From: Chryseomicrobium sp. FSL W7-1435
GTDB lineage: Bacteria; Bacillota; Bacilli; Bacillales_A; Planococcaceae
Reading direction: 5' to 3'
Assembly: GCF_038595005.1 (NCBI RefSeq)
Contig: NZ_CP151997.1
Coordinates: 1,922,001 to 1,986,000 of the forward strand
Length of the DNA stretch: 64,000 bases
Below the pieces are notes generated by a model that had not been told where the DNA came from, ran no database searches, and saw only the letters and a list, made by a program, of their open reading frames with translations. The position numbers were made by a program, and so were the translations under genes. This document shows, one piece after another, positions 59,308-60,708 of the stretch. The first letter of the stretch is position 1. Every line of letters begins with the position of its first letter.

Positions 59308-59336
59308 AAAAAACCGCCCTAATGGCGGTTTTTTTT
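59308..59336. terminator. Second bidirectional terminator, overlapping spoVM end
   Basis: AAAACCGCC, loop CTAAT, GGCGGTTTTTTTT. The minus-strand loop holds the spoVM stop codon TAG. Confidence 0.92.
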
Positions 59337-59414
59337 CGACTTTTGATTATCCTTGAAGAACCAACGCAAGAGCTTAGTGACACTTGCCGGAAGCTGAATA
59401 GTAATGACCTTCAC
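59319..59414 (-). CDS. spoVM: Stage V sporulation protein M, divergent
   Basis: A 31-residue peptide starting at GTG 59412-59414, directly after the thiN stop. It begins MKVITIQLPASVTKLLRW. Against B. subtilis SpoVM (26 residues) the M1, K2, T5, I6, L8, P9 and R17 positions agree, P9 being the proline needed for curvature sensing. The rest is an amphipathic helix with a longer, Lys/Asn-rich tail ending in the terminator hairpin. SpoVM marks the forespore surface and anchors SpoIVA. Position between thiN and rpmB equals B. subtilis. GGGG five bases upstream may serve as ribosome site. Too short for usual gene finders. Confidence 0.8.
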   Translation of the reverse strand: MKVITIQLPASVTKLLRWFFKDNQKSKKNRH

Positions 59415-60059
59415 TTAATCCCCACTTTCCTCGCTACTCTGTATACATAAACATATGCCAGATGAAAACGAGATAGACCCGGAGTCCTTCAAAATCTCAT
59501 TGCTTGTGAAGCGAGAGCTAGTGGATGTGATAGTATCATTGGTCACTGGAAATTTAAATCCTTGTAACGTGATCGCTGTAACACTGCCCTTCCATGCAAA
59601 AAAAGAACAATAGCGATAACCATCAGCTTCAATTGTTGTCTCTCCCGGAACTAGAAAGTAAATTTTGTTTTGTTTATCTACTAGTTCAAAGTGAATCTCG
59701 GGAAACCTTTCTTGAAAAGCGGCTACATCATGCAGTACTGCTTGATAGTGATCTAGACGTCCACCAGTGACGCCAACAAGAGTGATACGTCTTGGTTGAA
59801 GCTTTGTGGCTTTTTCAAGTGCAAGAAACGTATCAGTTTCATCTTTATCGACTGGCAATTGCACCGCTTGTTGTAAAGCATGTGCCCACTGTTGCTTCTC
59901 AGCCTCCCGAATAGAATCTAAATCCCCGATCACTAAGTCAGGTGTTATTCCTATCTCTAAAAGTCTGATTGCTCCGCTGTCTGCACCAATCCAATAATCT
60001 GCTCGGAGATTGGAAGGAATCTCTTGTTTCGGTCCTCCACCACATATACCGATATGCAT
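59415..60059 (-). CDS. thiN: Thiamine pyrophosphokinase
   Basis: Transfers pyrophosphate from ATP to thiamine, 214 residues. WIGADSGAIRLLEIGITPDL, GDLDS (residues 45-49), DKDETDTFLALEKA and GVTGGRLDHY are conserved. Directly follows rpe and abuts spoVM. Confidence 0.95.
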   Translation of the reverse strand: MHIGICGGGPKQEIPSNLRADYWIGADSGAIRLLEIGITPDLVIGDLDSIREAEKQQWAHALQQAVQLPVDKDETDTFLALEKATKLQPRRITLVGVTGGRLDHYQAVLHDVAAFQERFPEIHFELVDKQNKIYFLVPGETTIEADGYRYCSFFAWKGSVTAITLQGFKFPVTNDTITSTSSRFTSNEILKDSGSISFSSGICLCIQSSEESGD

Positions 60060-60060
60060 A

Positions 60061-60708
60061 TTAGACTTCCTGTATTTCTTTTAATGCTAACGCTTTATCT
60101 GACGCTCCGTAGATAGCAGATCCCGCTACTACAACTGTTGCTCCAGCTTCAACACACTCTTTAACTGTAGTTTTATTAACGCCACCATCAATTTCAATTT
60201 CAAAATGTAATCCTTTTTCCGCTTTCAGTTCGGCAAGTTGTTTCACTTTCTTCAATACGCCTGGAATAAAGGATTGTCCACCAAAGCCTGGGTTTACTGT
60301 CATAAATAAAACTACATCCACATCTTCTAAGACATGTTCAATCGTTGAAATTGGCGTATGCGGATTTAACACTACTCCACATTGAACATTAAACGATTTA
60401 ATATAGTGAAGCGTGCGATGAAGATGACGGCAAGCCTCTACATGAACGGTAATAATATCTGCTCCCGCTTGCACAAAGGATTCAATATAGGCATCTGGAT
60501 TTTCAATCATTAAATGGACATCTAGTGGTAACTTGGTATGGGGACGTATAGCATTGACGACTAGTGCTCCCATCGTGATATTTGGAACAAAATGGCCATC
60601 CATAACATCTACATGAATCCAATCTGCTCCAGCTTTTTCTACGATTTCAATCTCACTTTGTAAGTTAGCAAAATCTGCTGCTAGTATTGAAGGTGCTACT
60701 TTTACCAT
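60061..60708 (-). CDS. rpe: Ribulose-phosphate 3-epimerase
   Basis: Pentose-phosphate epimerase, 215 residues, TIM barrel. SILAADFANLQSEIEIVEKA, WIHVDVMDGHFVPNITMGA, LMTVNPGFGGQSFIP and IDGGVNKTTV are diagnostic. Two bases from rsgA upstream. Confidence 0.97.
   Translation of the reverse strand: MVKVAPSILAADFANLQSEIEIVEKAGADWIHVDVMDGHFVPNITMGALVVNAIRPHTKLPLDVHLMIENPDAYIESFVQAGADIITVHVEACRHLHRTLHYIKSFNVQCGVVLNPHTPISTIEHVLEDVDVVLFMTVNPGFGGQSFIPGVLKKVKQLAELKAEKGLHFEIEIDGGVNKTTVKECVEAGATVVVAGSAIYGASDKALALKEIQEV

Follow-up and report, generated by a model that had tools for sequence, protein, structure and literature searches.

A probable spoVM gene of Chryseomicrobium, divergent at positions otherwise fixed in its family, in the slot between thiN and rpmB

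SpoVM is a textbook example of a peptide that senses membrane curvature, and it has been studied mainly by mutation in a single species. Published work ties proline 9 of SpoVM to curvature sensing (PMC12004969), isoleucine 6, together with glycine 486 of B. subtilis SpoIVA, to the binding of these two proteins, and lysine 2 and isoleucine 15 to the cortex checkpoint (PMC5607322). The latter source also gives Pro9 as the sole residue that is fully conserved in an alignment of Bacilli and Clostridia, and places spoVM near rpmB in other organisms too (PMC5607322). It has also been published that short spoVM genes are overlooked in annotation (PMC3533761), and the loss of other sporulation components, the SpoIIIA proteins, is known in the family to which the organism studied here belongs (PMC7924749). 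A literature search combining SpoVM and Planococcaceae found no paper, and in the text consulted nothing is said on whether Chryseomicrobium or Tetzosporium form spores.

We analysed a window of 64,000 nucleotides, the whole stretch of DNA considered here, from Chryseomicrobium sp. FSL W7-1435, whose genome is a single contig of 2,710,361 bases. On the reverse strand, at positions 59319..59414, lies an open reading frame of 31 codons plus a stop, with a GTG start and a TAG stop (MKVITIQLPASVTKLLRWFFKDNQKSKKNRH), which was assigned as spoVM from the reading of the frame, a weak NCBIfam match and orthologues in the genus. Its upstream neighbour is thiN, encoding thiamine pyrophosphokinase (59415..60059, reverse strand; Pfam TPK domains and TIGR01378), which is preceded by rpe, encoding ribulose-phosphate 3-epimerase (60061..60708, reverse strand; PF00834), and the convergent neighbour on the other side is rpmB, encoding ribosomal protein L28 (59051..59239, forward strand; PF00830 and TIGR00009). 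According to the reading of the frames, the GTG is directly preceded by the TAA stop codon of thiN. For comparison within the genus, a set of four genomes was used: the source genome (G000), C. aureum DSM 105437 (G001), C. excrementi ET03 (G020) and Tetzosporium hominis VT-49 (G038), Chryseomicrobium and Tetzosporium being separate genus names at NCBI. Beyond the species compared here, NCBI also has C. imtechense, C. amylolyticum, C. palamuruense and C. deserti. The frame is present in all four, and the 20 bases 5' of its start (59415..59434, reverse strand, GCGAGGAAAGTGGGGATTAA), which are the end of thiN, are identical in all four and are probably the ribosome-binding region. At 59412-59417 of the window the thiN stop and the spoVM start stand in the same frame with zero codons between them, again in all four genomes; readthrough of this stop would yield a ThiN-SpoVM fusion, and termination and restart may be coupled.

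Against NCBIfam, the peptide matched a single family, SpoVM_broad (NF033436), over residues 1-21, with 15.7 bits and an E value of 0.011, about half of the cut-off of 31 bits, which is an annotation threshold and not a biological criterion. The peptides of C. aureum, T. hominis and C. excrementi also matched only this model, with 16.9, 15.9 and 19.9 bits, respectively (in C. excrementi for the first 32 residues), and searches of the source peptide against Pfam and against PDB sequences gave no match. Since the profile match is weak, the case for SpoVM is built on the slot: the frame lies close to rpmB and downstream of thiN, in a genome with sporulation genes. Within a family sample of 121 genomes, the SpoIVA model was matched in 92, namely in the source genome, in the three congeners, whose copies are broken, and in 88 genomes of other genera, including G098, where spoIVA is only a fragment at a contig end. 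In all 88 of these, among the matches listed, a SpoVM profile match lay 8-25 bases from the thiN match, and 62 of the SpoVM matches were above the cut-off and 26 below it. In the 29 other-genus genomes that lack a spoIVA match, the same slot was searched by pattern, and no SpoVM-like frame turned up; one of these slots measured 255 bases at a contig end, rpmB was unrecognised in 6 of the 29, and the pattern was looser than the profile and not the same as it. A sequence-only reading of the window had proposed a divergent SpoVM in this syntenic slot, and the proposal was borne out: the frame from 59414 to 59319 is real, it follows thiN and converges with rpmB, and its one NCBIfam match is SpoVM_broad. 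We put the probability that it is the spoVM gene of this organism, a true but divergent member of the family with a presumed SpoVM function, at roughly 0.87.

A second, canonical spoVM elsewhere in the genome, which the sequence-only reading had named as the finding that would speak against it, was found neither in the search of the genome with its own peptide, which recovered this copy alone, nor in the profile searches. An order-wide profile search of 261 genomes gave 29 matching rows, all from the same family, with 68-81 bits for the four genus genomes and at most 20 bits for the others; an equally divergent second copy in the source genome was absent from this search and from the own-genome search. 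A whole-genome search with the SpoVM profile gave no match in the source genome up to E 10 among the matches listed, and this search passes over even the known copy. The sequence-only reading had described the peptide as missed by length cut-offs; what is visible here is a problem of score. The SpoVM_broad cut-off is missed by 26 of the 88 evident spoVM genes of other genera, among the matches listed, and by all four copies of the genus.

To describe the gene within the genus, we compared its four copies codon by codon. The peptides are MKVITIQLPSSVTKLLRWFFRDTKKNRH in C. aureum, MRVITFQLPAAVTKVLRLFFRDQKSTKKNRH in T. hominis and VKVITFQLPAAVTKVLRLFFIVKKKTTASRER and onward, over 74 codons in all, in C. 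excrementi, and together with that of the source genome they share the genus-type sequence [KR]VIT[IF]QLP[AS][SA]VTK[LV]LR[WL]FF. The ThiN proteins of C. aureum, T. hominis and C. excrementi are 66, 64 and 64% identical to that of the source genome. Over spoVM codons 2-20, the comparison of the source genome with C. aureum gives 8 changes at 12.8 synonymous sites and 2 at 44.2 nonsynonymous sites (Fisher p 2.9e-5); the source genome differs from T. hominis by 9 synonymous and 7 nonsynonymous changes (Fisher p 0.001), and from C. excrementi by 8 and 7. As judged from these counts, the first 20 codons are under purifying selection. In C. excrementi, the usual tail of SpoVM and the hairpin that follows it are gone, and the frame runs on for its 74 codons into the antisense strand of rpmB, which is perhaps early decay after the loss of sporulation. 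A further hairpin-like stretch remains in the slot of this species.

The sequence-only reading had also counted the length of 31 residues, the GTG start and the basic tail as peculiarities; these turned out to be ordinary. SpoVM sequences were read in 78 of the 88 spoIVA-matching genomes of other genera, where they are 28-53 residues long, have 41 distinct sequences over the first 20 residues, lie directly after thiN as here, carry a basic tail, and start with GTG (23), TTG (23), ATG (19) or CTG (13), so that non-ATG starts are common, with GTG and TTG the commonest. CTG seems to be the start in these 13 of 78 (for example, G013, G091, G061, G062 and G033), where it stands 3' of a purine-rich stretch resembling a ribosome-binding site, an assignment made by alignment only. 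The end of the tail in the source genome coincides with an intrinsic-terminator-like hairpin with A- and T-runs (59308..59334, reverse strand), whose loop at 59319-59323 holds the TAG stop of spoVM and whose 5' arm encodes the last residues. The fold, computed over 46 bases, has -15.8 kcal/mol (z -4.2), and none of 200 shuffled sequences was as stable; a terminator pattern scan listed no terminator, this hairpin included. Three of the four genus species end in KKNRH because the 5' arm of the hairpin codes for the last residues, which makes the end of the tail a side effect of this terminator-like structure.

For the comparisons with B. subtilis, the identities and hydrophobic moments given here refer to what we take to be its 26-residue SpoVM sequence. 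The sequence-only reading had listed M1, K2, T5, I6, L8, P9 and R17 as shared with this sequence, which holds: the source peptide is identical to it at 7 of the first 20 residues, which equals the lowest value among the 78 other SpoVMs of the family (mean 9.1, minimum 7). The two also share the rpmB-adjacent slot and an amphipathic helix after Pro9 that points in nearly the same direction. Relative to the presumed B. subtilis peptide, Tyr4 is replaced by Ile, Lys10 by Ala and Gly14 by Lys in the source peptide, which also has Trp-Phe-Phe at 18-20, a hydrophobic stretch that is shorter by about three residues, a length of 31 residues instead of 26, and a GTG start. Residues K2, Thr5, I6, P9 and Arg17 are kept, and residue 15 is Leu for the presumed Ile of B. 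subtilis, a conservative change that is also found in 11 of the 78 relatives. I6 is shared by the source genome and C. aureum, and F6 is found in the other two sisters and in 77 of the 78 relatives.

Within the family, all 78 SpoVMs of other genera have Y4, T5, P9, K/R10, S13 and C19 without exception. The four genomes of the genus instead carry I at position 4, A/S at 10, T at 13 and F at 19, and they also have K at position 14. Tyr4 and a basic residue 10, which are present in all 78 relatives and presumably in B. subtilis, are replaced by I4 and A10 in the source peptide; these two residues are not known to define the family. B. subtilis presumably has G at 13 and M at 19, and since S13 and C19 are features of this family, Tyr4 and the basic residue 10 are the only ones at which the peptide departs from both references. 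The lysine lost at position 10 has a counterpart at position 14, one helical turn further on. Over the first 20 residues, the source peptide is identical to the family SpoVMs at a mean of 7.9 residues (best 9), compared with a mean of 13.6 (minimum 8) among themselves. On the sequence comparisons made here, the real peculiarity of this SpoVM is the set of genus-wide changes at fixed positions, together with the high evolutionary rate of those sporulation genes that were compared.

A different helix face (SVTKLLRWFF), as named in the sequence-only reading, found no support. Over residues 10-20, the hydrophobic moment is 0.52, at the lower limit of the 0.52-0.68 seen in the family, compared with 0.61 for the presumed B. 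subtilis sequence, and its direction is nearly identical (-171 versus 178 degrees), so that the polar face keeps its direction. Over residues 10-23 the moment is 0.42 versus 0.58, the lower value arising because the hydrophobic stretch ends at residue 20. AlphaFold2, run without an alignment, returned a single helix over residues 9-27 of a 30-residue chain lacking Met1, with a mean pLDDT of 81, which is weak evidence for a peptide. The peptide is thus predicted to form a short amphipathic helix after Pro9.

By analogy with B. subtilis, the peptide would be made by the mother cell during sporulation. Its flexible N-terminus, Pro9 and the amphipathic helix of about residues 10-20, ending in Trp-Phe-Phe, would take it to the outer forespore membrane, which is convex, and there it would recruit SpoIVA, the ATPase whose polymer forms the basement of the coat. 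On the branch at the base of the genus, SpoVM and SpoIVA would have changed at positions fixed in the family, within a fast phase of the sporulation genes, and the loss of Lys10 with the gain of a lysine one turn later would have left the helix amphipathic. Expression, membrane targeting, SpoIVA binding and spore formation in the source organism are all carried over from B. subtilis in this proposal, and by that analogy its SpoVM most likely does the standard SpoVM job.

The partner protein was then compared. The spoIVA gene of the source genome is open and scores 470 bits, with a cut-off of 459.9 and a range of 521.8-570.7 for full-length copies of other genera. The protein keeps the GPVRVGKST motif and a glycine seven residues from its end, which was equated with the SpoVM-binding Gly486 of B. 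subtilis by position only. Its end reads KQEQQG; 20 relatives have forms such as NEGDRG, NDGNKG and NEGERG, and the remnants in the sister species read KQEQQG, KQDQQG and RQDQQG. Across 21 genomes, the mean identity to other genera is 46.1 for SpoIVA of the source genome versus 61.9 (z -6.0), and 35.8 versus 61.4 for SpoVM (z -5.3); the neighbouring genes gpsA (z -0.8), der (z -0.3) and a lipoprotein gene (z 0.0) are unremarkable, and SpoVM and SpoIVA are two clear outliers. With the source genome removed (n 20), identity of SpoVM correlates with that of SpoIVA with a rho of 0.77, compared with 0.37 for gpsA, 0.42 for der and -0.16 for the lipoprotein gene. The second most divergent SpoIVA and SpoVM of the 21 genomes (the latter with V6, R10 and M11) are those of G099, which belongs to another genus and has a genome of 2.5 Mb.

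These values could mean that the SpoVM-SpoIVA pair of the genus was specifically re-matched by co-evolution and no longer fits the B. subtilis or the family type, a possibility for which the two outliers, their correlation, the end of SpoIVA, unlike that of relatives and akin to the sister remnants, and G099 as a second, milder case all speak. However, SpoIIE, which has no known partnership with SpoVM, is also lowest in the source genome among the 15 compared (33.2 versus 40.2, z -3.1), and its correlation with SpoVM without the source genome (n 14) is almost as high as that of SpoIVA (rho 0.71 versus 0.77). For SpoIVA, the tip of the source genome has a length of 1.02, and the other tips have a median of 0.20 and a maximum of 0.31; in the same order, the values are 1.30, 0.42 and 1.09 for SpoIIE, 0.28, 0.19 and 0.44 for gpsA, and 0.13, 0.06 and 0.18 for der. 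Among the 178 columns of SpoIVA at which 19 or more of the 20 others agree, 37 are changed in the source genome, and these changes show no significant excess at the end of the protein (5 of 16 sites in residues 441-487 versus 32 of 162 elsewhere, p 0.33). The profile score of SpoIIE (279 bits) lies inside the family range of 266.9-380, and taken alone it would have misled, in contrast to the identity comparison. The genomes in all these rate comparisons are not independent points. The SpoIIE control and the lack of concentration at the SpoIVA end weaken the case for pair-specific co-evolution, which we consider less likely than not; its fuller form, in which Tyr4 and the basic residue 10 were lost, the lysine moved by one turn and the SpoIVA end changed along, such that each partner would function at home and fail with its B. 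subtilis counterpart, is likewise doubtful. From these sequence data, SpoIVA stands out more than SpoIIE, both seem fast, and the sporulation genes seem to evolve fast as a class in this genome.

As to the state of sporulation, the source genome carries open matches for all six families searched (spoIVA, sigE, spo0A, spoVAD, spoIIE and cotE), with the open genes full-length or nearly so wherever tested. The best NCBIfam models of its four sigma genes are SigE, SigK, SigF/SigG and SigG, and the genes are taken as sigE, sigK, sigF and sigG; the SigG match and one of the two SigE models are under their cut-offs. Its spo0A is above the cut-off and SpoVAD and SpoIIE are under their curated cut-offs, that of SpoIIE being missed by all 40 matching genomes of the family. 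A sigma-E promoter search upstream of spoVM gave a best score of 9, with a mean of 9.1 for shuffled sequences and of 10.3 for the family. The three congeners differ from the source genome in that stops, a frameshift and internal deletions disrupt their spoIVA; profile matches revealed no intact sigE, spoVAD or spoIIE in any of them, spo0A is open in all three, and cotE is matched over 152 of 177 positions in C. excrementi, over 88 in C. aureum and not in T. hominis. The genus name Tetzosporium suggests spores, yet in T. hominis spoIVA is broken and there is no intact sigE match.

It could be argued from these losses, from the run-on frame of C. excrementi without the usual tail and hairpin, and from the low scores of several sporulation genes of the source genome on their models, that sporulation is decaying across the genus and that SpoVM is a drifting leftover in the source organism as well. 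The open state of all six families in this genome and the purifying selection on codons 2-20 make such a relic unlikely. We also weighed at first a role outside sporulation, by which SpoVM would persist in species that lost sporulation, because the frame is kept in C. aureum, C. excrementi and T. hominis despite their broken spoIVA, and because codons 2-20 differ between C. excrementi and T. hominis by 5 synonymous and 2 nonsynonymous changes (Fisher p 0.007). The spoIVA remnants of the same two species are, however, similarly constrained (pS 0.67 and pN 0.067 over 99 codons, pS 0.22 and pN 0.02 over another 44), and their lesions differ, from which it follows that spoIVA was under selection for most of the divergence of the two species and was lost recently. 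The loss of spoIVA in the three sister species thus looks recent, and the sporulation losses within the genus are apparently separate. After a recent loss, the survival of a very short spoVM frame needs no new role; given this, and since the pattern search of the slot gave no SpoVM-like frame in any of the 29 genomes that lack spoIVA, we consider a role outside sporulation very improbable. That the frame arose by chance between thiN and the terminator, for which its score under the curated cut-off and the overlap of its last codons with the hairpin could be cited, is almost certainly wrong, as the frame, its upstream bases and most of its first 20 residues are conserved in four of four species with few nonsynonymous changes.

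Our findings on this divergent SpoVM bear on annotation, on the peptide and on the genus. The current SpoVM model scores 26 of 88 evident members from other genera, among the matches listed, below its cut-off, together with all four of the genus. Since a natural SpoVM is changed at fixed positions and nevertheless subject to purifying selection, there appears to be no strict requirement for Tyr4 or for a basic residue 10, and the peptide of the source organism offers a ready test for separating curvature-sensing residues from SpoIVA-binding residues. The genus also forms a short natural series in which sporulation seems to have been lost recently, with one species in which all tested genes are open and three in which several are broken or missing.
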